Assembly: GCF_009674675.1 (NCBI RefSeq) | Contig: NZ_WKJC01000001.1 | Coordinates: 620,001 to 684,000 of the forward strand | Direction: 5' to 3' | Length of the DNA: 64,000 nucleotides | Source: Kangiella sp. HZ709 | GTDB lineage: Bacteria; Pseudomonadota; Gammaproteobacteria; Enterobacterales; Kangiellaceae | Part shown: piece by piece, positions 25,854-40,543 of the stretch | Position numbering within the stretch: position 1 is the stretch's first letter | How the letters are laid out: the number at the start of each line of letters is the position of its first letter | Notes under the pieces: model-generated | The model's input: the letters and a program-made list of their open reading frames with translations, nothing else | What the model was told of the DNA's origin: nothing | Databases searched by the model: none | Position numbers and translations under genes: made by a program

Positions 25854-27131
25854 TTAAATTTCTTTTGTGACAATACCAATCTGTTCAAGGTATTGCCAAT
25901 AGTGTGGAAATGATTTTTCTACTGCTTGCGCGTCTTCGATTATAATTCCTGGGACTTTTATTCCCAGCAATGCTAATGACATCGCTAACCGGTGATCGTG
26001 ACAACTTGAAACCTTTGCCGCGGATAATTTTGCATTACCCATAATCTTTATAAAATCTTCACCATAGTCACATTCAACGCCGACTCGCTTTAATTGCTCA
26101 CATAAATCCACAATCCGATTGGATTCTTTAAAAGCCAAGTGAGCAATATTAGTAATATAAGTTTCGCCACTAGCAAAAGCTGCGATAACCGCAAGCGTTG
26201 GAACTACATCAGGCATATTACCCATAGCAACAGTTACTGCTTCTAACGGCTTAGTATAAGAAACGACTAAGTCATCACCTTGACGCTTAACTTCTGCACC
26301 CATCGCCTCTAATACTTGTGGGAATTTTGCCTCGCCCTGTACCGAGTCAAAGTCATAATTTTTAATTTGAATTGTCGTTTCAGCAATTAAAGCTGCCGCC
26401 ATAAAATAACTGCAGGAAACCACATCACTAGCAACATTTATGGTAGGAGCTTGTAATGCTTGTGAATGTTCGATTAAAAACTCTCGCTCAGATAAGCGTT
26501 CAACTTTACCTGAAAATTTTTCTATCGCTTTTAAAGTTAATTCAATATAGCTTTCAGAAACAGGGTTGGACTTCAGTTGAATCAAAGTGTTTTTATTGGC
26601 TTTGAAAGCTGCTATCAATAAGCCGCTTAAAAATTGACTAGAACGTGAAGCATCTAACTGACAGTTTCCGCCGGCTATTGGCCCAGACAACTCTATCGGT
26701 AGATAACCACTGTTTGACTCAACCTTAACCCCTAGCTCTGATAATGAATCTATGATTTCCTGCATCGGTCTGGAGCGCATCTGTTCGCTAGCATCAACAA
26801 TCACTTTTGCTTCAATAGTTGCGGCGACTGCCGTGATAAAGCGACTTAAAGTTCCACTGTCCTGACAATTGAGCTGTATCTTATGTCGCGGGCTAAAATT
26901 ACTAATTCCTGTAATTTGAATAACCTCATTAACGCGCTCTACTTTGGCCCCTAGAGATCCAATGGCTGCTAAAGCCGCCCTAATATCTTCATTATCAGGA
27001 ACATTGTTTAAAACCGTTGTACCATCAGTAATAGCTGCAATAGCAATATACCGGTTAGCTAAGTACTTACTACCAGCTATAGAAACCGTTGGTTTTGTTA
27101 TATTACTGCTTACTAGCTGCCTAGCTGCCAA
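25854..27131 (-). CDS. aroA: 3-phosphoshikimate 1-carboxyvinyltransferase (EPSP synthase), divergent
   Basis: 425 residues, EPSP synthase by length and motif order: GSKYLANRY at 20-28, SGTLSRF, SEQMRSRPMQEI, SRSSQFLSGLLIAA, MPDVVPTLAVIAAFASGET, HLAFKESNRI, DHRLAMSLALLG and VEKSFPHYW. The N-terminal motif is unusual: most family members have K-S-x-S-N-R, and this one has Lys22, Tyr23, Leu24, Ala25, Asn26, Arg27, so the substrate-contacting Ser23 of E. coli is a tyrosine. The PEP/glyphosate loop reads DSGT rather than NAGT. Other catalytic residues appear retained. It lies between the yfcL-like gene (44-base gap) and aroC. Confidence 0.92.
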   Translation of the reverse strand: MAARQLVSSNITKPTVSIAGSKYLANRYIAIAAITDGTTVLNNVPDNEDIRAALAAIGSLGAKVERVNEVIQITGISNFSPRHKIQLNCQDSGTLSRFITAVAATIEAKVIVDASEQMRSRPMQEIIDSLSELGVKVESNSGYLPIELSGPIAGGNCQLDASRSSQFLSGLLIAAFKANKNTLIQLKSNPVSESYIELTLKAIEKFSGKVERLSEREFLIEHSQALQAPTINVASDVVSCSYFMAAALIAETTIQIKNYDFDSVQGEAKFPQVLEAMGAEVKRQGDDLVVSYTKPLEAVTVAMGNMPDVVPTLAVIAAFASGETYITNIAHLAFKESNRIVDLCEQLKRVGVECDYGEDFIKIMGNAKLSAAKVSSCHDHRLAMSLALLGIKVPGIIIEDAQAVEKSFPHYWQYLEQIGIVTKEI

Positions 27132-27175
27132 GTGCCCACCTACTTTTACTGTCGCTTTTTTGTTATGTTTATTTA

Positions 27176-27427
27176 TTACGCTTCTTCTGGTTGCAGAGCC
27201 TCGAAAATTTCAGCTAACTGCTCAACGTCACGATCATTTAATCCATCTGACTCCACTGCGTCTTCTACAAACAAAGCAAACTCAGCGAACCATTCAAGAT
27301 CATTTAAATCCCCTTGTGGAATTAAATCCACCATAGGGATCAAATAACCTACTAAAAATAATTTCTCTTCTTCAACTTGTTGCTCCATGCCCAACAGTTG
27401 TTCTTTGATCGTTTCCGCTATCGACAT
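27176..27427 (-). CDS. yfcL: YfcL family small protein
   Basis: 83 residues, acidic, resembling E. coli YfcL in length and in the pattern GYLIPMVDLI..LNDLEWFAEFALFVEDAVESDGLNDRDVEQLAEIFE. In E. coli yfcL lies close to aroC, which agrees with the position here. An AGAAGGG Shine-Dalgarno 7 bases before the ATG supports this start, although the gene then overlaps the end of trpA by 56 bases in another frame. Function unknown. Confidence 0.72.
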   Translation of the reverse strand: MSIAETIKEQLLGMEQQVEEEKLFLVGYLIPMVDLIPQGDLNDLEWFAEFALFVEDAVESDGLNDRDVEQLAEIFEALQPEEA

Positions 27428-28259
27428 TGATAAGCCCTTCTCGAATTAAGTTACGCGCCTGATGGGCTGCGGTCGCTATAGTTTTAGCGTATTTCGCAAT
27501 GGCATCAAGCATAATGTGTGGCTCATTATAGTATTGATTAATGATCTTCACTAGAGCAGAACCGGTAATTACGCCATCAACACCAGCTTCAGCGGCTTGA
27601 TAAACATGTTCAGCTGTTGATATGCCAAAACCTTGTACTAATGGAGCACTATTAAAGGTTCTTAGTTTTTCCAAAAAATCGGTTTTAGCCTGATTGGCAC
27701 TCACCTCTGTTCCGGTAATACCTTTACGGCTTAAGACATAAGTATAACCTTGTGAATGCTTGGCCACTTGAGCCAGTGTCTCATCGGTTGCATCCGGCGG
27801 TGCAATAAAAACCGTATCGATATTATGAGCAGCTGCCTGCTCGGCAAACAATGAAGCTTCTTGAACAGGACAATCTGCCACTAAAACTGAGTCAACCCCT
27901 GCTTCTTTCGCCATTGCGTAATAGTGGGAAATACCTTGGGCAAAAACTAAATTGGCATAAGTTAAAATTCCAATAGGGATATCCGGATATTGCATTCTAA
28001 CTTTCTGAATTAATATAAAGCCATCTTTCAAACTAAAGCCATTGTCTAAAGGACGCAAGCTGGCTTCTTGAATCACAGGACCATCAGCAACCGGATCGGA
28101 AAAAGCAAAACCCAACTCTAAAGCATCCGCCCCACTTTCTATTAGTTTTTCAATAATTTGGAAAGAATGATCAAAAGTCGGATCGCCAAGCAATACAAAT
28201 GGAATATAGGCTAATGCATTATTAGCTTTTTTAGTTTCAAACATCTTTTGATAACGCAT
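27372..28259 (-). CDS. trpA: Tryptophan synthase alpha chain
   Basis: 295 residues; cleaves indole-3-glycerol phosphate to indole, which is channelled to TrpB. Motifs: MFETKKANNALAYIPFVLLGDP, the catalytic Glu in ALELGFAFSDPVADGPVIQEA, VADCPVQEA, FIAPPDATDE, YVLSRKGITG, VQGFGISTAEHV and GVITGSALV. It is about 25 residues longer than usual: the hydrophilic tail LIREGLINVDSGNDQRTT is unlike the family and is encoded by bases that also hold the ribosome-binding site and first 19 codons of the yfcL-like gene. Its start overlaps the trpB stop by one base. Confidence 0.95.
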   Translation of the reverse strand: MRYQKMFETKKANNALAYIPFVLLGDPTFDHSFQIIEKLIESGADALELGFAFSDPVADGPVIQEASLRPLDNGFSLKDGFILIQKVRMQYPDIPIGILTYANLVFAQGISHYYAMAKEAGVDSVLVADCPVQEASLFAEQAAAHNIDTVFIAPPDATDETLAQVAKHSQGYTYVLSRKGITGTEVSANQAKTDFLEKLRTFNSAPLVQGFGISTAEHVYQAAEAGVDGVITGSALVKIINQYYNEPHIMLDAIAKYAKTIATAAHQARNLIREGLINVDSGNDQRTTVGHGATS

Positions 28260-29470
28260 TAGTTACTACCTCTTTGCGCAAGCTCATCCATAACCATGGT
28301 TAAATCCTTATCGCCACGACCAGACAAGTTCAGCAGAATATTCATTGGCTCAGTAGCTTCCTCGGCAAGCTTTTTCACATAGGCAAGCGCATGGGAAGAT
28401 TCCAATGCAGGAATAATACCTTCGGTTCGTGAAAGCTCTTGGAAAGCCTCTAAAGCTTCATCATCACTAATGCCGACGTATTGAGCACGTCCTGTTTTCA
28501 TTAAATGCACATGCTCGGGACCTACTGCAGGATAATCTAAGCCCGCAGATACAGAATGAGACTCCACTATCTGCCCTTCTTTAGTTTGCAAGGTTTGAGT
28601 TCGAGCACCATGGATAATGCCTTCAGTACCTTTAATCAAAGTTGCGCCATGCTCTTTTGAATCTAAACCTTTTCCTGCTGGTTCAACACCAATTAACTGC
28701 ACATTTTTTTCTTTGATAAAATCCGCAAAAATACCAATCGCATTAGAGCCGCCGCCAACACAAGCTACAACGGCATCGGGCAACTGACCAATTTGCTCGA
28801 GCATTTGCTGCTTTGCTTCTTCACCGATAATTTTTTGATAAGTCTTTACCATCTTCGGAAATGGGTGTGGACCCGCAGCGGTTCCCAATAGGTAATGAGT
28901 AGAATCGTACGAAGCTGCCCAATCTCTTAAAGCCTCATTAATCGCATCCTTTAAGCTACCGCTACCGTTATCAACAGCGATAACATTTGCCCCCATTAAT
29001 TTCATTCGAAAAACATTAGGCGCTTGCCGGTCAATATCTTTACTGCCCATATAAATAGTGGCTTCTAAGCCTAACAAAGCGCATGCCAAAGCCGTTGCTA
29101 CTCCATGCTGGCCGGCACCAGTCTCAGCGATAATTCGGTTTTTACCCATACGCTTTGCTAGTAAAGCCTGCGCTAAAACTTGGTTAGTTTTATGCGCGCC
29201 ACCATGCAATAAATCTTCTCGCTTTAAAAAAACGCGGACACCATTTTGTTTCGCGAAACTAGAGCACTCCGTTAGCGGTGTTGGACGGCCAGCATAATCA
29301 TTTAATAACCCAGTCAATTCGGACTGAAATTCATGATCGGTTAAAGAGCTTTCAAATGCTTCTTCAAGCTGCTGCAAAGCCGGCATTAAAATTTGCGGCA
29401 CAAATTGACCGCCATATTGCCCTATATAGGCACCTTGAAACTCATATTGACTTTCTACTGCTGTTGTCAT
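28259..29470 (-). CDS. trpB: Tryptophan synthase beta chain
   Basis: 403 residues; PLP enzyme joining indole and serine. Signature [29 protein letters not shown] contains the PLP lysine near residue 94. [10 protein letters not shown] binds the PLP phosphate, and [11 protein letters not shown] lies near the end. Start ATG overlaps the trpC-trpF stop by four bases (ATGA), with AAGG about 10 bases upstream. Confidence 0.97.
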
Positions 29471-30825
29471 CTTGAAAAACCTTTTACTTTACAATTTTTA
29501 AATAAGTTATCGAGCTTGTTTGGACACTTAATTCCTGCTACCGACTCACTACCACTACAAATATCTAGCTTGCTAAAACCCAGAGATTTAAGCTGTGCTA
29601 CATTATCTGCATCCAAACCACCAGCTATTCTAAACATGGCTTTATTTATCTGTATTTCCTCGCTTTCTAACAGTCGCCAATCAAAGGCCTCGCCTGTTCC
29701 ACCTTGCTGTTCTTTAACTTGTGTATCTAATAATATTTCTGAAAGATTTTTATAATTTAAATTGGGCAAAACACCATCAACATGAACCACTTTAGATATA
29801 AAAAAATCACCGCCCAACTCCTGTCTTAGCTCATCGATTAACACTTGAGACTCATCACCATGCAACTGCACACCATTTAATCGATACTCAGAGATTTTAT
29901 GTAAGATAAAATCCTTAGTTTGATTTTGAAAAACACCAATCAATGGCTTCTTTTTAGCTGATAGAAGCTGCTCGACTTTGCGCTTAGACTTATCAGCAAA
30001 AATCACGCCAATACTTGAAGTTGCTAACTTATCAACCAAAGACAGATCTTGCTGATTGGTTAGTCCGCAGATTTTGATATCTCCATAAACCAACTCAGCA
30101 CAAGCCATTTCAAGATTCTCTTTGGACATCAATGAAGAACCAACTAAACAAGAGTCCGCATATTGCGATAACTCCAAAACGTCTTGGTGAGAATTGATAC
30201 CTGACTCAGTCACAATCACTCTATCTTTAGGAATTGAATCAAATAACTGCTTGGTATTGTCTAAACTTGTCGATAAATCTTTTAAATCTCTATTGTTAAT
30301 TCCGATTATTTCAGCGCCTAAATCTATTGCTCTTTGCAATTCTGCTTTATCATGAACTTCCGTTAAAATATCTAACTGATATTTCTTTGCTTCTTCAGCG
30401 CAAACTCTATATTCCTCATCAGTCAAAACTGAAAGCATTAATAAAATAGCATCCGCGCCATAATATCTTGCTTGCCTTATTTGCTTAGGCTCTAAAATGA
30501 AGTCTTTACACAGAACTGGTTTATCCGTATTTTTTGCTACGTATTCGAGGTTCTTATAGCTCCCTTGAAAGAAACGTTCTTCAGTTAATACTGATATCGC
30601 ATCTGCATATTGATTGTAGATAGGAACTATTTCGGTCAAATCAAAACCGTCTCTAATAAGTCCTTTTGATGGAGATGCTTTTTTGCATTCCATAATAAAA
30701 CCAAATTGTGGTTTTGATAGTGCTTGCATTAAACTTCTTGTACTTTTTTCAGTAGGCACTACATCTTGAGAATTGGTTACCAATTGTCTTTTATAATTAA
30801 CTATAGAGGCTAAGACATTAGACAT
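29467..30825 (-). CDS. trpC: Bifunctional indole-3-glycerol phosphate synthase / phosphoribosylanthranilate isomerase
   Basis: 452 residues, a TrpC-TrpF fusion as in E. coli. Residues 1-255 are [64 protein letters not shown]. Residues about 256-452 are [19 protein letters not shown] with the catalytic cysteine, [23 protein letters not shown] and [12 protein letters not shown] with the catalytic Asp. A perfect TAAGGAGG lies 6 bases before the ATG at 30823-30825. The start overlaps trpD by 8 bases. Fusion is common in Enterobacteria and Vibrio but not in Pseudomonas. Confidence 0.96.
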
Positions 30826-31825
30826 TTGATTCCTCCTTAATGAGCTCTAAATGCTCTTTTACCTTGCCCGATAGCATAGTCTTTTTTGCTAGTAAAACCC
30901 CTTCTTTTAAAGACTCAGCTTTATCATTTAAAAAAAGCAATGCGCCTGTATTGGCTGCAATCATATCAGTATGAGCTTCAGTACCCTTGCCTGCTATGAC
31001 TTCTAACGCTGCTGTTAAATTATCTTCAATAGAAGCCACTTTTAAATCATCTATAGAGTATTTTTGTAAGCCAAGCGCCTCTGGAGATATCTTCATTTCA
31101 GTAATATTGCCATGATTTAGCATGACAGCGTAAGTATCGGCATGTAACGCAATTTCATCTAATCCTGCGCCATGAACAATCAAAGCTTTTTTAGTGCCAA
31201 GAATATTTAATATTTCTGCAAAAGGTTTGCAGTACTTTTTATCATAAACGCCAAGAAGCTGGACTTCAGGCTCAGCCGGGTTTGCCAAAGGACCAATTAA
31301 ATTAAAGATTGTCCTAGTTTTTAATGACTGTCTTATAGGCATCACATGCTTCACGCCATGATGGTAATCAGGGGCAAATAAAAAACAAAAATTAGTTTTA
31401 TCCAGCAGTTCTTTACTGGCCGCTGGAGATAGATGGGTATTAATACCTAGCGCCTCCATCAGATCAGATGAACCGCACTTGGAAGAAACAGAACGATTTC
31501 CATGCTTAACGACTTTGACTCCAAGCGTAGCTGCGACAAAAGCTGAAATAGTCGATACATTAATCGTATTAAAGCCATCACCTCCAGTACCACAACAGTC
31601 ATTAGTCACATAATCGGTTTTCGGAAATTTAACTGCTCGCTTTCTTAAAGCATGCGCGGCGCCTGCAATTTCTTCTACTGACTCTCCTTTAGTCTTCAGG
31701 GCTGCCAATAATGCTGCCGCTATTGGCATTTCTACTTGACCTGCTAATAATTCATCAAAAGAATCATTCGCCTGCTCAAAGCTTAAACTTTGCCCTTGAT
31801 AAATAGTTTCAAGCATTTGCAACAT
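30818..31825 (-). CDS. trpD: Anthranilate phosphoribosyltransferase
   Basis: About 335 residues. ATGs at 31840, 31825 and 31816 are possible; 31825 is preferred because GGAG lies 9 bases upstream. Family motifs: the PRPP-binding CCGTGGDGFNTINVSTISAFVAA, KHGNRSVSSKCGSSDLMEALG, MPIRQSLKTRTIFNLIGPLANPA and VHGAGLDEIA. It transfers phosphoribose to anthranilate. It overlaps trpG upstream and trpC downstream, so translation is probably coupled. Confidence 0.95.
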   Translation of the reverse strand: MLQMLETIYQGQSLSFEQANDSFDELLAGQVEMPIAAALLAALKTKGESVEEIAGAAHALRKRAVKFPKTDYVTNDCCGTGGDGFNTINVSTISAFVAATLGVKVVKHGNRSVSSKCGSSDLMEALGINTHLSPAASKELLDKTNFCFLFAPDYHHGVKHVMPIRQSLKTRTIFNLIGPLANPAEPEVQLLGVYDKKYCKPFAEILNILGTKKALIVHGAGLDEIALHADTYAVMLNHGNITEMKISPEALGLQKYSIDDLKVASIEDNLTAALEVIAGKGTEAHTDMIAANTGALLFLNDKAESLKEGVLLAKKTMLSGKVKEHLELIKEESNV

Positions 31826-32420
31826 GAGAAATTTCTCCATTGGTTTTATGATTCTTTATAACTGCTTTAAAGTTATCGAAAATATTCGAGCCTTTTAAAG
31901 TCATAATGCTTTCTGGATGGAATTGCAGTCCAAATATTGGGTAATCTTTATGCTCTATGGCCATAACTTCTCCTACCTCAGAAGTAGCCGTGACAGTTAA
32001 TTCTTTGGGTATATTTTTTGCAATTAAGGAATGATATCTTGCTACAGAAATATTATTGCCCAAGCCTGAAAATAAAGCCGAGTCTAACAAATCAATCAGT
32101 GAACTTTTCCCATGAATGGTTTTTTTAGCATGAGTAATGCTTGCATCCATAGCTTGCGCAATGACCTGATGGCCTAGACAGATTCCAAGTATTGGTTTTT
32201 TGTCATAAAAATCTTTTACTAACTGTAGGCAGTGCCCTGCATTTTCTGGGTTAGATGGGCCTGGGGAAATAATGATTGCATCATGTTTTAAAACCAGCGA
32301 TCGCATTTGTGAATAATCAATATCATTGCGACAAACTTTCACTTCAATATCTTGCGCATTTAATTCGTATCGAAGGTTATAAATAAACGAATCATAATTA
32401 TCGATTAATAAAACTTTCAT
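31809..32420 (-). CDS. trpG: Anthranilate synthase component II (glutamine amidotransferase)
   Basis: 203 residues: LLIDNYDSFIYNLRYEL at the start, oxyanion region ISPGPSNPENAG, nucleophile elbow GICLGHQVIAQA with the catalytic cysteine near residue 80, and the His-Glu pair in GLQFHPESIMTLKG. It delivers ammonia to TrpE. The start codon overlaps the trpE stop (ATGA). It is not fused to TrpD, unlike in E. coli. Confidence 0.96.
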   Translation of the reverse strand: MKVLLIDNYDSFIYNLRYELNAQDIEVKVCRNDIDYSQMRSLVLKHDAIIISPGPSNPENAGHCLQLVKDFYDKKPILGICLGHQVIAQAMDASITHAKKTIHGKSSLIDLLDSALFSGLGNNISVARYHSLIAKNIPKELTVTATSEVGEVMAIEHKDYPIFGLQFHPESIMTLKGSNIFDNFKAVIKNHKTNGEISHVANA

Positions 32421-33982
32421 GCCGCCACCTCAGAATCGCAAGTAACACTCAAGCAGGCACTAAGCACAGCCTTTGCTTTATTATCAGTTTCTTGCGCTTC
32501 ATCACTAGGTATAGAATCGAAAACGACCCCAGCGCCAGCAGTAACGGTCGCCACATTATTTTTAACGAGGGCTGAACGAATAATGATAGCGCTATCAAAT
32601 TCATCATTAGCATTGAGCACTGCAACTGCCCCACCATAAAAACCACGACTTTTTTGTTCATAATCGCGGATGATTTCCATTGCCTTAATTTTCGGAGCGC
32701 CGGTTAAGGTTCCCATATTGCTGCATGCTTTATAGGCATCCAGAGAATCGATCTCTTCTTTTAGAACACCTTTCACCTCTGACACGAGATGCATCACATG
32801 CGAATATTTAACAATCTTTTTTAACTGAGTTATTTTGCGTGAGCCATTGCGAATAATTCGCGCTAAGTCATTACGAGCCAAATCTACTAACATCATGTGT
32901 TCAGCCGCTTCTTTTCGATCTTCAATTAATTCATATTCAACTTGTGAGTCACGTTCAAAATCTATAACATCATTTTTAAATGCACGTTTTCGAGTTCCCG
33001 CAATTGGATATAAGCTTACTTCCTTTTGCGGTGTGACTTTAAGACAACTTTCTGGGCTTGCTCCGAACAACTGTTTATCGCCAAAGTTTAAGAAATACAT
33101 ATAGGGACTTGGATTAGAACTGCGCAGCTTTTCATAAGCAATAATTGGTTTAGGACAATCAAGCTGATAATCACGCGATAAAACCACCTGAAACACATCA
33201 CCATCAATAATATGCTTTTTTGCCTGTTTAACTTGTTTTTTAAACTCTTCATCCGATAAATTAACGGATACTTTATTTGAAACAGTGATCTTTGGCTCTT
33301 GAGCTTCGCAGTGTCCTTCTTGCAGCAGCTCTTCTTGCAGAGACTCTTCTAACTGAGTTATGTTAAGTCCTAATCTAATATCGTTAGTAGCATTTTGACC
33401 GAAGCCTTTGACGATAATTTGTGCTGAGTTGTTATCCATTGATTGAATAAGAAGTTGATCAGCCAAATAAAAAATATAGTCCTCGTAAGATTTGTTAATC
33501 TTAGGCAAAGCTTCAAACTGATCCACCAGATCAAAACTAAATGCACCTAATAATAGTGAAGATTCATCGTTTTCACGGTTACCTGTTTGGATAGCCGATT
33601 GAACTAATTTCAAGACGTCTAAAATACTGGATTGGCCTAATCGCTCATCTTCATCGGTAACAATTGGCAATGGATTTAAAACAAGCTCTAAACACAATTC
33701 AGTTTTTTTAACACTAAAATCACTCAGTACGTCTGTATCTAATCGCTGCAAGAAAGCGACACCATTGTCATTAAGAGCAGTTAGCATTACTCGATTGTTC
33801 AGCGCCTTAATTTCCACTGCGCTAGATATCGCGATAATGCTTTTTCTATGAGCTTGAGTGCCAGCTTCAGCCGTTTCGAGTAGCGCGGTATGCTCTTTTA
33901 GTCCCTTATCACAGAGTCTTTTATACACTTCTAAAGGACTTAAGGATAAACTGATTTTTTTAACCAAAGTATTAACTTGCAT
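32417..33982 (-). CDS. trpE: Anthranilate synthase component I
   Basis: 521 residues from the ATG at 33980-33982, which follows GAGGTTGTA and sits 7 bases after the DAHP synthase stop. A longer frame starting at 34036 overlaps the DAHP synthase gene and adds residues not seen in the family. The chorismate-binding domain is complete: IDGDVFQVVLSRDYQLD, PSPYMYFLNFGDKQLFGASPESCLKV, YPIAGTRKRA, DLARNDLARI, SHVMHLVSEVKG and GTLTGAPKIKAMEII. The N-terminal part carries the LLESAE-like element LLETAEAGTQAHRKSIIA, where tryptophan feedback binding is expected. Confidence 0.95.
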   Translation of the reverse strand: MQVNTLVKKISLSLSPLEVYKRLCDKGLKEHTALLETAEAGTQAHRKSIIAISSAVEIKALNNRVMLTALNDNGVAFLQRLDTDVLSDFSVKKTELCLELVLNPLPIVTDEDERLGQSSILDVLKLVQSAIQTGNRENDESSLLLGAFSFDLVDQFEALPKINKSYEDYIFYLADQLLIQSMDNNSAQIIVKGFGQNATNDIRLGLNITQLEESLQEELLQEGHCEAQEPKITVSNKVSVNLSDEEFKKQVKQAKKHIIDGDVFQVVLSRDYQLDCPKPIIAYEKLRSSNPSPYMYFLNFGDKQLFGASPESCLKVTPQKEVSLYPIAGTRKRAFKNDVIDFERDSQVEYELIEDRKEAAEHMMLVDLARNDLARIIRNGSRKITQLKKIVKYSHVMHLVSEVKGVLKEEIDSLDAYKACSNMGTLTGAPKIKAMEIIRDYEQKSRGFYGGAVAVLNANDEFDSAIIIRSALVKNNVATVTAGAGVVFDSIPSDEAQETDNKAKAVLSACLSVTCDSEVAA

Positions 33983-33989
33983 TACAACC

Positions 33990-35024
33990 TCAAACTGCTG
34001 CTGACAAAGGTTTAAAAGTACGGCCGCTTGCTTCAATGAATGGTTTAAGCTGTTGTAGTAACTCAGAAAAATCCGTTGGCGACAATGCTTGAGCAGCGTC
34101 TGAAACCGACTCTACAGGTCTTCTGTGGCACTCAATAATAAGGCCATCAGCACCACAAGCCACTCCAGCCTTAGCCATTGGTGAAACTAAGTTTCTAACT
34201 CCAGTACCGTGCGAAGGATCAACGATGACTGGTAAATGACTTTTTTCTTTAATATAAGCTACCGCATTTAAATCTAAAGTATTTCTAGTCGCTGTTTCAA
34301 AAGTGCGAATACCTCTCTCGCAAATCATTACGTTAGGGTTGCCAGTAGCAACAATGTATTCCGCCGCTAATAAAAGTTCTTCGATAGTCGCAGATAAACC
34401 GCGTTTTAATAGAATTGGTTTTTGTGTTTCACCAACTGCTTTTAGCAAAGAATAGTTTTGCATATTTCGTGCGCCAATCTGGATGGCTGAAATATGATTG
34501 GCAACATCATCTAAATCTTTAATATCCATCAATTCAGTAATGGTATCTAAGCCTGTTTCTTTACCTACCTGCTCCATGATTTTCAAACCGTCAACACCTA
34601 AACCTTGGAATGAATAAGGGCTAGTTCTAGGCTTAAAAGCGCCGCCACGTAAAACCGTAGCACCAGCAGATTTCACGTATTGCGCGGTCTCTAATAACTG
34701 CTCTTCGCTTTCAATAGCGCATGGTCCGCCCATTAAGGCGAACTGCTGAGAGCCCACAGGGGTATTTCCTAACTGAATAACCGTATCTTGTGGATAAATT
34801 TCTCGACTAACCAGTTTATACTTACTTAAAACAGGTTTTACTTTCTCAACTTGAGGATATTTCTCCAAATTAAGCGCATCCAAGATTCGCTCATCACCTA
34901 AAGCGCCTAAGACCGTTCTTTCGACCCCAGGCATGTGTAGGGGCTGTAGGCCGGCAGTTTCAATTTCATGCAATACTTCCTTAGCTTGGGCATCGGTTGT
35001 ATTGGCTTTTAATATAATAATCAT
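33990..35024 (-). CDS. aroF: DAHP synthase, type I-beta with N-terminal ferredoxin-like regulatory domain
   Basis: 344 residues from the ATG at 35022-35024, preceded by CAGGAAA at proper spacing. The first step of the shikimate pathway, joining PEP and erythrose 4-phosphate. Residues 1-75 (MIIILKANTTDAQAKEVL..GLQPLHMPGVERTVLGALGD) form the ferredoxin-like or ACT-like domain that mediates feedback inhibition in the Thermotoga-type enzymes. The barrel carries GGPCAIESEEQLL, LRGGAFKPRTSPYSFQGLG, IQIGARNMQN, LKRGLSATIEE, CERGIRTFE, PVIVDPSHGTG and IIECHRRP. An open frame extends 40 codons upstream to 35144, but it runs through the attenuator hairpin and is not expected to be translated. First structural gene of the trp operon. 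Paralogue names vary, so the symbol is approximate. Confidence 0.93.
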   Translation of the reverse strand: MIIILKANTTDAQAKEVLHEIETAGLQPLHMPGVERTVLGALGDERILDALNLEKYPQVEKVKPVLSKYKLVSREIYPQDTVIQLGNTPVGSQQFALMGGPCAIESEEQLLETAQYVKSAGATVLRGGAFKPRTSPYSFQGLGVDGLKIMEQVGKETGLDTITELMDIKDLDDVANHISAIQIGARNMQNYSLLKAVGETQKPILLKRGLSATIEELLLAAEYIVATGNPNVMICERGIRTFETATRNTLDLNAVAYIKEKSHLPVIVDPSHGTGVRNLVSPMAKAGVACGADGLIIECHRRPVESVSDAAQALSPTDFSELLQQLKPFIEASGRTFKPLSAAV

Positions 35025-35069: not shown

Positions 35070-35106
35070 TAAAAAAACCCGCATTCTTTTCGATATGCGG
35101 GCTTTG
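35070..35106 (-). terminator. Attenuator terminator 2, just upstream of the DAHP synthase gene
   Basis: On the minus strand GCCCGCAT (35095-35102) pairs with ATGCGGG (35078-35084), followed by seven T residues (complement of 35071-35077). Flanking AAA/TTT extend the stem. It lies 16 bases after the stop codon of leader peptide 2 and 46 bases before the DAHP synthase start, the position expected of a transcription attenuator. Confidence 0.88.
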
Positions 35107-35152
35107 GAATGGATAGTTTTATTAAATAAAAAACTCCCGAACAAAAGCCCGC
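35097..35152 (-). promoter_or_regulatory. Antiterminator pairing of trp attenuator 2
   Basis: GCGGGCTTT at 35152-35144 (minus strand, inside the leader 2 frame just after the Trp codons) is perfectly complementary over 9 bases to AAAGCCCGC at 35105-35097, the 5' arm of terminator 2. A ribosome held at Trp13 or Trp14 would leave the first segment free and favour this structure. A ribosome reaching the stop codon would cover it and allow the terminator. Confidence 0.75.
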
Positions 35153-35205
35153 GTTAGCCATAGCCACCAGCAATGCATTAAGTTGTGAGTTGTTAGTTGT
35201 TTCAT
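35122..35205 (-). CDS. Second trp leader peptide, 27 residues with Trp-Trp-Leu-Trp
   Basis: ATG at 35203-35205, TAA at 35122-35124. The peptide begins MKQLTTHNLMHC, has Trp at 13, 14 and 16, and ends in TRAFVREFFI. Three Trp codons in four are far above chance and they precede an antiterminator segment and a terminator. No Shine-Dalgarno is evident before the ATG, which follows the T-run of terminator 1 by about 24 AT-rich bases. An internal ATG at codon 10 is an alternative start. Three Phe codons follow (21, 25, 26), of uncertain meaning. Predicted to regulate the downstream DAHP synthase-trp genes by ribosome stalling. Confidence 0.75.
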   Translation of the reverse strand: MKQLTTHNLMHCWWLWLTRAFVREFFI

Positions 35206-35228
35206 AAAATTTTTTATAAAATTAGTTC

Positions 35229-35257
35229 AAAAAAAAAGCCCGCTTTATGCGGGCTTT
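35229..35257 (-). terminator. Attenuator terminator 1, trp leader
   Basis: On the minus strand AAAGCCCGC, a 5-base loop ATAAA and GCGGGCTTT are followed by a run of nine T residues in total. The stem is identical in core (AGCCCGC/GCGGGCT) to the E. coli trp attenuator. It lies 52 bases after the stop of leader peptide 1. Confidence 0.92.
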
Positions 35258-35305
35258 ATAATCTTTTCTGTTAAACACATTTTCTGTAAACATAAAGTTG
35301 CCCGC
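35249..35305 (-). promoter_or_regulatory. Antiterminator pairing of trp attenuator 1
   Basis: GCGGGC and TTTAT within 35305-35292 (minus strand, separated by AAC) can pair with ATAAA-GCCCGC at 35259-35249, the 5' arm of terminator 1, giving an 11-base-pair alternative helix with a small bulge. Segment 2 begins just after the leader 1 stop codon, as in the classical enterobacterial trp leader. Confidence 0.78.
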
Positions 35306-35308
35306 TAC

Positions 35309-35353
35309 CTACGTAACGTGCCACCAAGAAATATTTGCGTTTAATCTTTTCAT
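35309..35353 (-). CDS. trpL: trp operon leader peptide 1 (14 residues, tandem Trp)
   Basis: ATG at 35351-35353, TAG at 35309-35311; peptide MKRLNANISWWHVT. E. coli TrpL is also 14 residues and also has Trp at 10 and 11. The following RNA carries the competing helices described for attenuator 1. Ribosome stalling at the Trp pair when charged tRNA-Trp is scarce should prevent termination. A GCGGA lies directly before the ATG and gives at best a weak ribosome-binding site. Confidence 0.88.
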   Translation of the reverse strand: MKRLNANISWWHVT

Positions 35354-35404
35354 TCCGCTAATCTAAAGTAATAGATATTTAGGGTCAAGCTTTTAATTCA
35401 ATTT

Positions 35405-35449: not shown

Positions 35450-36163
35450 TTAATTTTTACCTTTGGCAAACTTTTCGACTTGCGCTTCGGTCTTGATCCG
35501 ATGACTGCCCTGCTTATCTAAAAGACGCTCAATACCGGAAGTTAAAGACCAGATCTCCACTTTAGCTGCTTGATCATGCCATTCAGCTACTGTCAGGCCT
35601 TGAGCGAAAGAGTCTAAATAGGCCACTCGATTACCTAATTTTACTGGTAAGGCATCAATTTTCAATAACTCTTTAGCTTCATTAACAACCGCTTCTGCTG
35701 AGTTGGTTCTTACTCTATAACGATTCCAACAAAGGCGTGTCTCTAGATGTGTGTTCGCCTTTTTCGCTTCTTTCACAATCTCGGCTAAGTGTTTGGTTGA
35801 CCAGACTTCCACTTGCGAAGGACTTAAAGGAATTAACGCTAAATCAGATAACATCAATACCGCGCGAGTAATATTAGTAATTCTGGGGTGACCATCAATT
35901 AAAATATAATCGTAATCATCAAGGTTATCTCTCACTAATTTTTGTAACTGAGTTAGGTTTTTTGCTGTTTTTACCTGCATATTCTCAATTACATACTTCT
36001 CATTACGAATTTGATACCAAGTTTCTAGCGAACTTTGCGGATAGTCGGTATCAATCATTAAAACATTAGAGCGATCGGATAAGGTTGACGCTATATTTAC
36101 ACACAGAGTTGTTTTCCCTGCGCCACCTTTCATTTGTACAAAACTCAAAACTTTCGCACGCAT
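35450..36163 (-). CDS. Orphan ParA/MinD-type ATPase
   Basis: 237 residues with the deviant Walker A motif FVQMKGGAGKTTLCVNIAS near the N-terminus, Walker A' LMIDTDYPQSSLETWY and Walker B YILIDGHPRI. A good GAGGGG ribosome-binding site is 8 bases before the ATG. There is no parB-like gene or obvious parS next to it, so it is not a standard chromosome or plasmid partition locus. The positioned cargo could be a pilus, chemosensory or other complex. It sits between the pilus genes and the trp leader, both on the same strand. Confidence 0.85.
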   Translation of the reverse strand: MRAKVLSFVQMKGGAGKTTLCVNIASTLSDRSNVLMIDTDYPQSSLETWYQIRNEKYVIENMQVKTAKNLTQLQKLVRDNLDDYDYILIDGHPRITNITRAVLMLSDLALIPLSPSQVEVWSTKHLAEIVKEAKKANTHLETRLCWNRYRVRTNSAEAVVNEAKELLKIDALPVKLGNRVAYLDSFAQGLTVAEWHDQAAKVEIWSLTSGIERLLDKQGSHRIKTEAQVEKFAKGKN

Positions 36164-36315: not shown

Positions 36316-36747
36316 TTAACAAGTCGAACCTGACTCAGGCCAGCAAGTTTTACCATTCCAACCTTTATTGCCAGCTTGGTCAATAGAAATAGCACCGTCT
36401 GAAGCTGGCTGAGAACCCGTTGGGCTTGCCGTAATGGTATATGTTGAAGCTGTTACATTACTGATTGCTACAGTGTAATAAGCCGAGCCTCCATCAGCTG
36501 GTACTTGAGTAGAAAATAAGGCATTACTAGCACCAGTATAACTAAAGTTGTTATTTGCTTTAAAGCGCTCAACCGCTTGTGAGGCAGCTAATACTGCCCC
36601 CATAGCATCAGCACGCTTAGAGCGAATCACCTGATTCTGATACGAGGGTATAGCGATAGCTGCTAAAATAGCAACTGCCGCCACCACTATCATAAGCTCA
36701 ATTAAACTAAATCCTTTCGAGTTCTTATTAATTGATTTAATGCTCAT
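36316..36747 (-). CDS. pilE: Type IV minor pilin PilE
   Basis: 143 residues from the ATG at 36745-36747, which overlaps the pilY1 stop by one base (TAATG). The prepilin leader MSIKSINKNSKG is followed by mature FSLIELMIVVAAVAILAAIA with Glu5, the N-methylated phenylalanine and the long hydrophobic helix. Two cysteines near the C-terminus (GKTCWPESGSTC) probably form the D-region disulfide loop. In Pseudomonas a pilE of this kind ends the fimT-pilY1 operon, as here. Confidence 0.9.
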   Translation of the reverse strand: MSIKSINKNSKGFSLIELMIVVAAVAILAAIAIPSYQNQVIRSKRADAMGAVLAASQAVERFKANNNFSYTGASNALFSTQVPADGGSAYYTVAISNVTASTYTITASPTGSQPASDGAISIDQAGNKGWNGKTCWPESGSTC

Positions 36748-39700
36748 TATTTCTTCTCTCTCCATTTAACGGTTCTAACGCCACCTTTGTAGAAGTCACA
36801 ATCATCACCTGTACATACTGTCTGAGTACCAACCAGTGTAGCAATTGAGGTGTCTTCTGGGAAGAGGATCGTCACACCTGGAGCAATACCTACATAGTTA
36901 ACATTTGTATATCTATCTGTAGGATCTGCTAACAATCCTGTTTCAAAGGCTCTTACAGATGGAGCTCCTTCTAACAGACTAACACCGTACAAGCGGTTCA
37001 CAGTAGAGCTCACACCGCAGTTTGCACCCTGCGCCGGAATAAAGGTTGTAAAGAAGATGTTAAAATCAATGGTGGTGCTGTTCGCTAACACTTTCTCACC
37101 AGAAGCTAGCTCTATATACCAACCCACATCACCAGCGGCGATAATATCATCTAACTCGTAAAAACTCGTTTCACCATTAGCATCAGTAGTACCCGTAGTA
37201 ACATCAAATAATTTATTCGGTGTAATAGGATCATTATCATTCGCCGCTTGGTCTCCAGTTATCTCGCGATCAAAGAAAGCGTAGAATTTATCCACTGAGG
37301 TATTATTTTTAGGATCACTTCTATGGCCAGTACCAATGGCTACTGTGGCAAAACTTACTCCTTTATAGTCCGCAAACACCACATCCGGTTTAGAATAGAA
37401 ACGATAAGAACCATCTGAGTCAGCACCCACATCTGCTAATAAATCAACTGTAGAGGTAGTAGTGGTTAAGTCTGCACGGTATATTTTACCACCTACATCC
37501 GCAGCATAAATACTATCAACCACTTCATCATTATTCAGGTCAATAAAAGTTAAATTAGAAGCAATGCTATTGCTAATCACACCCGTTCCAATAAGCGTCG
37601 TTGCAGAAATGCTAGCAGGAACACTGGCGGTACTTTCGTAGAAAGGTAAGCTATAAATGGCGTTGCCTTTAATACCTGCACCAGGATTTATTGCATTAGT
37701 GGTATCATCATAATAAGTATCAAAACCACCAGGGAATACAAGGCGTTTTTCATACTTATTAGTATTGTTAGCCGGTAATTGTACAATAACGGGCAATGAC
37801 CATGACTGAGCCAGATTCGTAATAGTTGCTCTATTCTCAGTATCGCCTGCCTTGTTATACCCCAGTTGCCCAGTAGTTAAATCAAATTGATCAGATACCG
37901 TATATAACATTTGTGGAGGGTTAGTTTCACTACTGACATCCATCGCATAGATATTATTACCGCCTCTTCTCATACCAAAGTACAAGTGGTGCTTTTGATT
38001 ACCTCCGCTGTCAACAAAGCTGTGTATGTGCATTTGTCCATCTAAACCGTATTGGCGCTCGACATTAGTAGGATCTAACGATTGATCTGATCTCCAAGTT
38101 TCTACTTTATTCAATAATTGACGAGGGAAGAAAGACCAAAGTTCATCACCTGTTGCTGTGTCTATTGCATGTAAATAACCTTCATTAGTACTGATAAAAG
38201 CAACAGTTTTGTTGGTATATTCTAAAATTTGTGGACGTGAATGCAGAGCATCACCAAAACGATTAGTACTACCGTTTACGCGATCTCTTATCCAGTCAAA
38301 ATTTTCTTGAGCTATATCTTTTGTTAATAAGCTATTTCCAAACAAGGTTTTGAGAACGTTTAAGTTTGTATCATTTACATAAGTCTTAGTAAAAGTTTCT
38401 GTTAACTGATTAAGACTGTTCGAGTTTAAGTTACTATAGACTTTAGGAGTTGTGCCAACAGAAATCTTTGGCATGGCACCACCTAAAGCAATCTCATTAC
38501 CATCGGCCACAATAGGGTTATTAGGATCTGTGTAGTCCTTGACGAACCAGTGGCTTTCAGCAGTATCTAAGAAAGTACCATTATTTACATCAACTGCCAC
38601 AACGCCGTTAGCATCTACTATATTACCTTCTTTTAAGCTGTACTTTTTTAAGTTACCAGACCAGGTTTCTTTACCTTCTGGTTTAAACATCGCCATATAT
38701 AAATCATTACTATGCTTCAAACGATTGCTTTGGCTTAAGGGAACACTTGGAGCTACAAAAGAAGTACTGTCCTGAGTCGACAATAAAATATTCTTGAATA
38801 CTTGTGCTAACTCTTTTGCATCAGTTGGTTTGAAGAACAATTTCTCGCCATTTAATGTTGATGCTGTATTTTCTAGAAATGTCTCAGCAACGGTATCATT
38901 CAAAGCAAAAGCTACTGTAGATGTATTAATGGTTGAGCCAGGAAAATTACTTTTAACGTCGTTAACAAAATAGTGAGCCGATAAATCTTCCGTACATTCT
39001 TTACCGTAATTTGTAGCGTTCGCACCACCAGAGTCACTGTCATCACAAGTACCAATGATTTTTTCCACACTACTATGGGTATTACTGTCAAAGGCTGTCG
39101 GTGTACCATCCGTCAACAACACAATCGAGTTATTAAAGCCACAAGCACCATCTAAAATTGGAGACGGCACAGCTGAGCCATTTTGAGTATAAGAGCCGCC
39201 TAAGTATTGAGTTGCTCTATAATAACCCTCTGCTGTTGGAGTTGATGCAACGGGCCACATCTCAAAAATTGAATTAACTAGAGTATCACGATGAGTTTCC
39301 CCGCCCGTGACTTTGCTTAGTGGTCTAATTTGCTCAATTAAATCAACATTTGGATTTCTAGTGTAATAATCGCTACCCGTTGCATAAGTCATCATACCAA
39401 TTTGGTCAATATCTCGAGTCACGGTTGTATCGGCTAGAAAGTCGTAGATAGCTTCTTTTAATTGCGTAATACGGTTGTCTTTATAATACCAACGGTATCT
39501 TTCATCTTTGTTTAACCGACCTAAATTCTGCTTCTCATCAATATACCCAGGGAAGACGTTCCAAGGAACCCAATCTAGCCAGTAATCTACGCCATCATCT
39601 TCGTACCAGAATACTTGAAGGTGTGGATATCTCGCTTTTGGATTTACCGACGGATCTGGTAGTAAAGCAACAGCGTCATCGAAGGTAAAGTTATTCTTGG

Positions 39701-39977
39701 TTACCGTCCACTCTTTGACAATAAGCTCATCTTCAGAAGCAACAACATCACCATCTCCATCGACATGAATACCGTCACCATTAACAGCGAAGTACTCTCG
39801 TCCGTTGGGATAAAAAGCCATGGAACCTGATAAATCAAGAACCAACATCATATTCGCTGTTTTAGCTTCACCAAAGAAAATCTCAATGTCTTCAGACATT
39901 GCAGGAGAAGCTACCATTGCGGATATAGCACCCGAAATAGCGACTAACTTTAATTTTTTAAATAAATTACTAAACAT
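36747..39977 (-). CDS. pilY1: Type IV pilus tip-associated adhesin/assembly protein PilY1
   Basis: 1076 residues from the ATG at 39975-39977, preceded by CAGGAG 8 bases upstream. The 17 codons further upstream lack a counterpart. A signal peptide (LVAISGAISAMVASPAMS) leads to a von Willebrand A-like domain with the MIDAS motif DLSGSM near residue 48 and a large cysteine-containing insert. The C-terminal half is the PilY1 beta-propeller (TVAFISTNEGYLHAIDTATG, LWSFFPRQLL, YFGMRRGGNNIYAMDVS), including the calcium-binding loop DLNNDEVVD near residue 810 and the downstream KIYRADL. PilY1 primes minor pilin assembly, counters retraction and may mediate surface adhesion. Confidence 0.94.
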   Translation of the reverse strand: MFSNLFKKLKLVAISGAISAMVASPAMSEDIEIFFGEAKTANMMLVLDLSGSMAFYPNGREYFAVNGDGIHVDGDGDVVASEDELIVKEWTVTKNNFTFDDAVALLPDPSVNPKARYPHLQVFWYEDDGVDYWLDWVPWNVFPGYIDEKQNLGRLNKDERYRWYYKDNRITQLKEAIYDFLADTTVTRDIDQIGMMTYATGSDYYTRNPNVDLIEQIRPLSKVTGGETHRDTLVNSIFEMWPVASTPTAEGYYRATQYLGGSYTQNGSAVPSPILDGACGFNNSIVLLTDGTPTAFDSNTHSSVEKIIGTCDDSDSGGANATNYGKECTEDLSAHYFVNDVKSNFPGSTINTSTVAFALNDTVAETFLENTASTLNGEKLFFKPTDAKELAQVFKNILLSTQDSTSFVAPSVPLSQSNRLKHSNDLYMAMFKPEGKETWSGNLKKYSLKEGNIVDANGVVAVDVNNGTFLDTAESHWFVKDYTDPNNPIVADGNEIALGGAMPKISVGTTPKVYSNLNSNSLNQLTETFTKTYVNDTNLNVLKTLFGNSLLTKDIAQENFDWIRDRVNGSTNRFGDALHSRPQILEYTNKTVAFISTNEGYLHAIDTATGDELWSFFPRQLLNKVETWRSDQSLDPTNVERQYGLDGQMHIHSFVDSGGNQKHHLYFGMRRGGNNIYAMDVSSETNPPQMLYTVSDQFDLTTGQLGYNKAGDTENRATITNLAQSWSLPVIVQLPANNTNKYEKRLVFPGGFDTYYDDTTNAINPGAGIKGNAIYSLPFYESTASVPASISATTLIGTGVISNSIASNLTFIDLNNDEVVDSIYAADVGGKIYRADLTTTTSTVDLLADVGADSDGSYRFYSKPDVVFADYKGVSFATVAIGTGHRSDPKNNTSVDKFYAFFDREITGDQAANDNDPITPNKLFDVTTGTTDANGETSFYELDDIIAAGDVGWYIELASGEKVLANSTTIDFNIFFTTFIPAQGANCGVSSTVNRLYGVSLLEGAPSVRAFETGLLADPTDRYTNVNYVGIAPGVTILFPEDTSIATLVGTQTVCTGDDCDFYKGGVRTVKWREKK

Positions 39978-39997
39978 TTTAAATTCTCCTGTTTCTA

Positions 39998-40543
39998 TTA
40001 AGAACAAGCTGAAATCAATAGTGACCATTGATCAATTTGGCTGGCTGTTTCATCGGCATCAAGGGCTGCATCGCCATCTTTATCTAACCAACCTTCACCA
40101 TCATGTTCAAAGACATTACAGCCGATAGTATTATCCGAAAACAAACCCGATGAATTACCAGTACACTTCTGGGCTTTCAAACACTCTTTGTATTCGGTTT
40201 TGGTTTGCGCAAGTAAAATGCCACCTGACTTATCGATTGAGGTAGGCGTTGTACAATTCATTGTGACTTTACCTTTCTCGTCTAAACACGTATCTAAAGT
40301 CGCATTAGGACTAAGCGTTACGGCTTGAGCCAAAATGGTTTGGTCGTAACGATAACTTTCAATAGTGGCATTATTGGCAGACTGTGCGCTATGAAAAGTT
40401 ACACTTTTCTCTTGAACATTTGCTGACTGCTTTTCAGATAAGATTCCTGAGCGCATAATCGCAAGCCCAACTACCGTCAATGCTGCCAATAAAAGCAAAC
40501 TCGTTAATAAAGAAAAGCCGGATTTTTTTGTTGACAATATCAT
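39998..40543 (-). CDS. pilX: Type IV minor pilin PilX
   Basis: 181 residues. The N-terminus MILSTKKSG followed by FSLLTSLLLLAALTVVGLAIM is a prepilin signal with Gly at -1. Residue 5 of the mature form is Thr instead of Glu, a deviation often seen in PilX/GspK-like minor pilins. Several cysteines follow (CLDEKGKVTMNC, CLKAQKC). Positioned 2 bases after pilW and 20 bases before pilY1. Works in the priming complex at the pilus tip. Confidence 0.87.
   Translation of the reverse strand: MILSTKKSGFSLLTSLLLLAALTVVGLAIMRSGILSEKQSANVQEKSVTFHSAQSANNATIESYRYDQTILAQAVTLSPNATLDTCLDEKGKVTMNCTTPTSIDKSGGILLAQTKTEYKECLKAQKCTGNSSGLFSDNTIGCNVFEHDGEGWLDKDGDAALDADETASQIDQWSLLISACS

Follow-up and report, generated by a model that had tools for sequence, protein, structure and literature searches.

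Textbooks present transcription attenuation as a one-gate device, backed in E. coli by a repressor. The E. coli trp leader trpL (RF00513) has one module, with an upstream ribosome-binding site and with TrpR repression in addition. In Salmonella, the mgtCBR leader contains two short ORFs, each coupled to attenuation, that sense ATP and proline, and is contrasted by its describers with metE, which has two terminators (PMC3641672). Tandem T-boxes are reported to precede histidine transporter operons in Enterococcus (PMC9413887). In Sinorhizobium meliloti, the rnTrpL RNA and the peTrpL peptide derived from trpL act in trans (PMC7298713).

The leader of the DAHP synthase-trp operon of Kangiella sp. 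HZ709 (the host genome), located in the 64,000-nt stretch of DNA analysed here (the window), shares with E. coli trpL the Trp-codon leader, segments 1-4, the GCCCGC/GCGGGC core and the T-run terminator, at nearly identical spacing. The differences are the second module, the absence of TrpR and a near-leaderless first leader ORF. Comparison of the sequences makes it highly likely that polymerases starting at a single promoter have to pass two ribosome-mediated trp attenuators in series.

Anatomy and predicted action of the double leader

The first-pass annotation of the window had proposed two tandem trp-type attenuators before one operon. This arrangement, preceded by one promoter, can be read directly from the minus strand, positions 35388 to 35024 (Table 1). 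The order is promoter, leader 1, antiterminator, terminator, leader 2, second antiterminator, second terminator and DAHP synthase, the first structural gene of the operon. Both modules present a translatable short ORF with clustered Trp codons ahead of the trp operon, and in both the antiterminator and the intrinsic terminator share segment 3 and are mutually exclusive. The same annotation assigned a GCCCGC/GCGGGC core to all arms; the last arm is GCGGGT rather than GCGGGC. Upstream of the operon, the 3' end of a ParA/MinD-like gene is recognisable in most genus members (upstream sequences of L002-L020); further upstream in the window, 36316-40543 holds type IV pilin-like and PilY1-like ORFs (a pilin starting GFSLIELMIVVA, a 1093-aa protein and another pilus-like ORF).

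Table 1. Features of the double trp leader and its surroundings, in positions of the window.
Feature	Position	Strand	Remarks
ParA/MinD-like ATPase gene	35450-36163	minus	directly upstream of the trp promoter
sigma-70-type promoter TTGACC-17-TAGATT	35360..35388	minus	sole such promoter before both gates
leader peptide 1, MKRLNANISWWHVT (stop)	35309..35353	minus	14 codons; Trp at codons 10-11 (35326-35321)
gate 1 segment 1:2 hairpin, CGTTAC/GTAGCG	35303..35318	minus	fold prediction
gate 1 segment 2, GCGGGC	35300..35305	minus	antiterminator pairing with 35254-35249
gate 1 terminator, segments 3:4, AAAGCCCGC/GCGGGCTTT	35229..35257	minus	9 bp; T9 run
leader peptide 2, MKQLTTHNLMHCWWLWLTRAFVREFFI (stop)	35122..35205	minus	27 codons; Trp-Trp-Leu-Trp
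leader 2 Trp codons 13, 14, 16	35169-35164 and 35160-35158	minus	
gate 2 segment 2, GCGGGC	35147..35152	minus	antiterminator pairing with 35102-35097
gate 2 terminator, segments 3:4, AAAGCCCGCAT/ATGCGGGTTT	35071..35105	minus	T-run
type I-beta DAHP synthase, ferredoxin-like domain	33990..35024	minus	Pfam PF00793, PF18152; ATG at 35024
trpE-trpG-trpD-trpCF-trpB-trpA-aroA	25854..34036	minus	downstream operon; trpC-trpF fused; aroA encodes EPSP synthase

A scanner requiring a Trp-cluster ORF, a terminator and an antiterminator recovered two modules from the real 460-nt region and none from 1000 dinucleotide shuffles; it reported no further module on either strand of the window. The two terminator stretches have fold z-scores of -4.3 and -4.9. 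The Rfam model RF00513 (Trp_leader) matches module 1 at 38.8 bits, against a gathering score of 41, and reaches 41.0 bits for the orthologous module 1 in genome G014 and 42.1 for one module in G022. Module 2, at 27.1 bits, lies under the 41-bit cut-off and is not filed as a member of the family. No T-box or riboswitch model matched the leader at E values up to 1.

Judged from its sequence, each module would work as an ordinary ribosome-mediated trp attenuator, the short Trp-codon ORF of the gate being translated by a ribosome. Were charged tRNA-Trp scarce, this ribosome would stall on the Trp codons and leave segment 2 free to pair with segment 3, blocking the 3:4 terminator so that the polymerase continues. 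With plentiful Trp, the ribosome would reach the stop codon and mask segment 2, allowing the terminator to form. A transcript would get to DAHP synthase and trpE only with both gates open, so the two read-through probabilities should multiply. The first-pass annotation predicted that two gates would give lower basal expression and a steeper response than one. The gates are of similar predicted stability, with mean energies of -17.2 (antiterminator) and -15.5 kcal/mol (terminator) for gate 1 and of -18.2 and -14.5 kcal/mol for gate 2.

The distances between these elements agree with such a mechanism. E. coli trpL has 19 nt from its first Trp codon to segment 2, with the stop at -4 (4 nt ahead of that segment). 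The corresponding medians are 21 nt and -6 for module 1, and 19 nt and +5 for module 2, so that a ribosome on the Trp codons would leave segment 2 free while one at the stop would cover it. Gate 1 and, in most relatives, gate 2 conform to this geometry; the exception is gate 2 of the host genome and of its nearest relatives (L001-L006), in which the leader 2 ORF extends 28-31 nt beyond the first base of segment 2. Since leader 2 runs through segment 2 in this clade, masking of the E. coli type at the stop codon would not apply there; we infer that with plentiful Trp the terminating ribosome would instead sit between segments 2 and 3, separating them.

Promoters were located by their conserved pattern, a generic scorer having given spurious sites in AT-rich DNA. 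The pattern TTGACN-17-TANNNT occurs in all 20 genus members, its -10 box being followed after 6-7 nt (6 nt in the host) by the ATG of leader 1, which is therefore probably leaderless. A comparable arrangement (spacer 17-18, gap 6-8 nt) is present in most other two-gate loci; a real 5' leader precedes leader 1 in L035, L037, L038 and most f15 loci. Across 33 loci, neither the stretch separating the gates nor that downstream of gate 2 contains such a promoter.

The predicted leaderless start, in all 20 genus members and most other two-gate loci, would also suit a scheme in which the product of termination at gate 1, a leaderless mRNA of about 125 nt, acts in trans besides in cis, through either the RNA or the 14-residue peptide. 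Transcription of S. meliloti trpL likewise begins at the ATG, and the encoded peptide has 14 aa (PMC7298713). The residues ahead of the leader 1 Trp codons vary among genera, however, and we regard an additional role in trans as improbable.

Conservation and covariation of the two modules

Alignment of 33 family loci revealed the covariation within modules that the first-pass annotation had asked for. The covariation statistics refer to module 1; module 2 was assessed by anchored triples, since MAFFT misaligned its segment 2. In module 1, 99.6% of terminator cells and 96.5% of antiterminator cells are paired. The terminator has 10 double-changed cells, against 2.0 in shuffles that keep relatedness, and the antiterminator 7, against 1.8 (none of 500 shuffles as high in either case). 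A three-way switch in L033, L034, L035 and L040 is the stronger indication: module 1 segments 2/3/4 have changed together from GCGGG/CCCGC/GCGGG to ACGGG/CCCGT/ACGGG, while module 2 of these loci stays G-C. Segment 2 pairs better with its own segment 3 than with that of the other module at 13 loci and worse at one, with ties at 19. The gate 1 1:2 hairpin is kept in L003 through changes on both sides (CGCTAT/ATGGCG), and is CGCTC/GAGCG in L031.

These data also bear on the hairpin of gate 1, which resembles a terminator on both strands and lies downstream of a ParA-like gene on the same strand; terminator 1 could accordingly be the end of that gene and the leader ORF accidental. A conserved promoter and a Trp-Trp leader nevertheless lie between gene and hairpin in 20 of 20 genus members, and segment 2 covaries with the hairpin, making this origin very improbable.

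Both modules precede the orthologous DAHP synthase gene in every one of the 20 genus genomes; the absence of the second module from all close relatives, which the first-pass annotation had named as counter-evidence, is thus not observed. Two modules occur in members of all six family genera, although genus g5 is represented by L031 alone, with its second module reduced. L041, L042 and L047 have lost gate 2, L050 is probably single-gate, and in L031 and L048 the second module is reduced to lone Trp codons. Given the losses in the first three and the reductions in the last two, gate 2 is dispensable in some relatives. The L044 and L049 loci are cut by contig ends. In genus g3 (L041, L042, L045), repeated elements such as ATGTCCAGGGATGGACTGTATG occupy the stretch before the DAHP synthase gene where relatives have gate 2; they sit downstream of the last trp terminator, and a comparable element follows the first terminator of L230.

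The order-wide search with RF00513 was too insensitive for module 2, and upstream regions of DAHP synthase genes and trpE were compared instead. Outside the family, two modules precede the DAHP synthase gene in families f4, f13, f14 and f15. No second complete gate was present in 40 regions before trpE within the order, and loci examined from other orders of the class have at most one gate. Among the matches listed from named close relatives are one-gate loci of Enterovibrio and Ferrimonas, together with a single family locus that is cut.

Gate 1 might alone sense Trp, gate 2 being either a relic or a fixed, partial terminator with no effect beyond reduced expression. Five family members have a lost or degenerate gate 2, as described above, and leader 2 of the host genome lacks a Shine-Dalgarno sequence (+1.6 kcal/mol). 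The family median for leader 2 is -2.7 kcal/mol, near the background of -2.2, compared with -6.0 for the DAHP synthase gene, and a start of leader 2 driven by a Shine-Dalgarno sequence is thus not supported. Leader 2 nonetheless has a start codon and an open ORF before its Trp codons at 33 of 33 family loci, and in six genera as well as four other families the gate 2 antiterminator and spacing are kept. None of these features would be needed by a fixed terminator, so sensing by gate 1 alone is unlikely, and two Trp-responsive gates in series remains the favoured reading.

Second gates, the DAHP synthase gene and TrpR

Family f7 carries a different kind of second element. In L087, L095, L097, L098 and L100 (before DAHP synthase) and in L230 and L238 (before trpE), a single attenuator is followed by a 20-codon ORF encoding ML(T/I/K)xKVKSWFIWWLQP(I/L)YAG, which lies before the first gene without a terminator of its own. 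Over codons 8-20, mean dN is 0.04 against a dS of 1.08, so selection seems to act on the peptide itself. Its role may be that of a Trp-sensing or arrest peptide, the nascent chain affecting translation in a sequence-specific manner. Further terminator-less ORFs with Trp codons (WRWW, WRWR, WRWQ) lie just before trpE or DAHP synthase in L222 (f11), L215 (f12), L223, L233, L090, L096 (f25) and L225 (f7, genus g43).

The first-pass annotation had suggested that the second gate arose by duplication when the DAHP synthase gene joined the operon. This origin is unsupported, because DAHP synthase-trp operons with one terminator exist (f6, f7, f23, f25) and second Trp-codon ORFs occur before trpE with no DAHP synthase gene in front. 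In a DAHP synthase tree, two-gate loci appear among the deep branches and also inside a clade with one-gate loci, the unresolved backbone being compatible with an ancestral tandem and losses as well as with repeated gain. Members of the genus also encode a class II DAHP synthase elsewhere in the genome. The enzyme of the operon can therefore be a Trp-dedicated isoenzyme, and closure of the operon need not starve Phe and Tyr synthesis.

A better correlate of the second gate than the joining of DAHP synthase to the operon is the absence of TrpR. No TrpR (PF01371) scored above cut-off in any of 40 family genomes, with E. coli positive in the control, or in the 12 genomes checked from f4, f13, f14 and f15. 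Across the order, TrpR was found in none of the nine families that have either a second gate or a second Trp-codon ORF, compared with 8 of 13 other families (Fisher p = 0.0055, treating families as independent, which they are not fully). At the one-gate locus L111 (Enterovibrio), CTAGTTAACTAGTA, a likely TrpR operator, lies at the promoter just upstream of the trp leader ORF.

When E. coli lacks TrpR, about 70% of cells still transcribe trpE under attenuation alone (PMC13178558). A second gate is therefore plausible as a replacement for TrpR, and the two-gate series is expected to stand in for the missing repressor as a second layer of control. More tentatively, it is possible that TrpR-less lineages across the order add a second Trp-sensing gate, either as a full attenuator (f1, f4, f13, f14, f15) or as a terminator-less Trp-codon ORF immediately ahead of the first gene (f7, f11, f12, f25).

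A conserved two-gate series for one signal, in genomes without TrpR, allows the replacement of initiation control by gate number to be tested directly. The tandem would also offer a ready-made part for steep, repressor-free control by an amino acid.

Comparison with known serial and trp leaders

In the literature searched, mostly outside subscription papers, we found no description of a tandem trp leader-peptide attenuator, and an earlier mention is possible. The related systems each share part of the arrangement. The two mgtCBR ORFs sense different signals, whereas here Trp codons occur in both gates, with a separate terminator for each. Double T-boxes resemble the present leader in placing more than one serial sensor before one amino-acid pathway, but they bind tRNA directly without translation, while sensing here is predicted to occur by ribosome stalling. 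The S. meliloti trpL/rnTrpL leader (PMC7298713) likewise has a leaderless 14-codon trp leader ORF and an operon unrepressed at initiation, although it is a single attenuator where the present leader has two. The rimP-leader of some Gammaproteobacteria (PMC2965389) also places tandem terminators before one operon, by means of a second upstream terminator; unlike the leader described here, it is not a leader-peptide system. Each module is of a known kind, and what appears to be new is their conserved pairing for the same signal.
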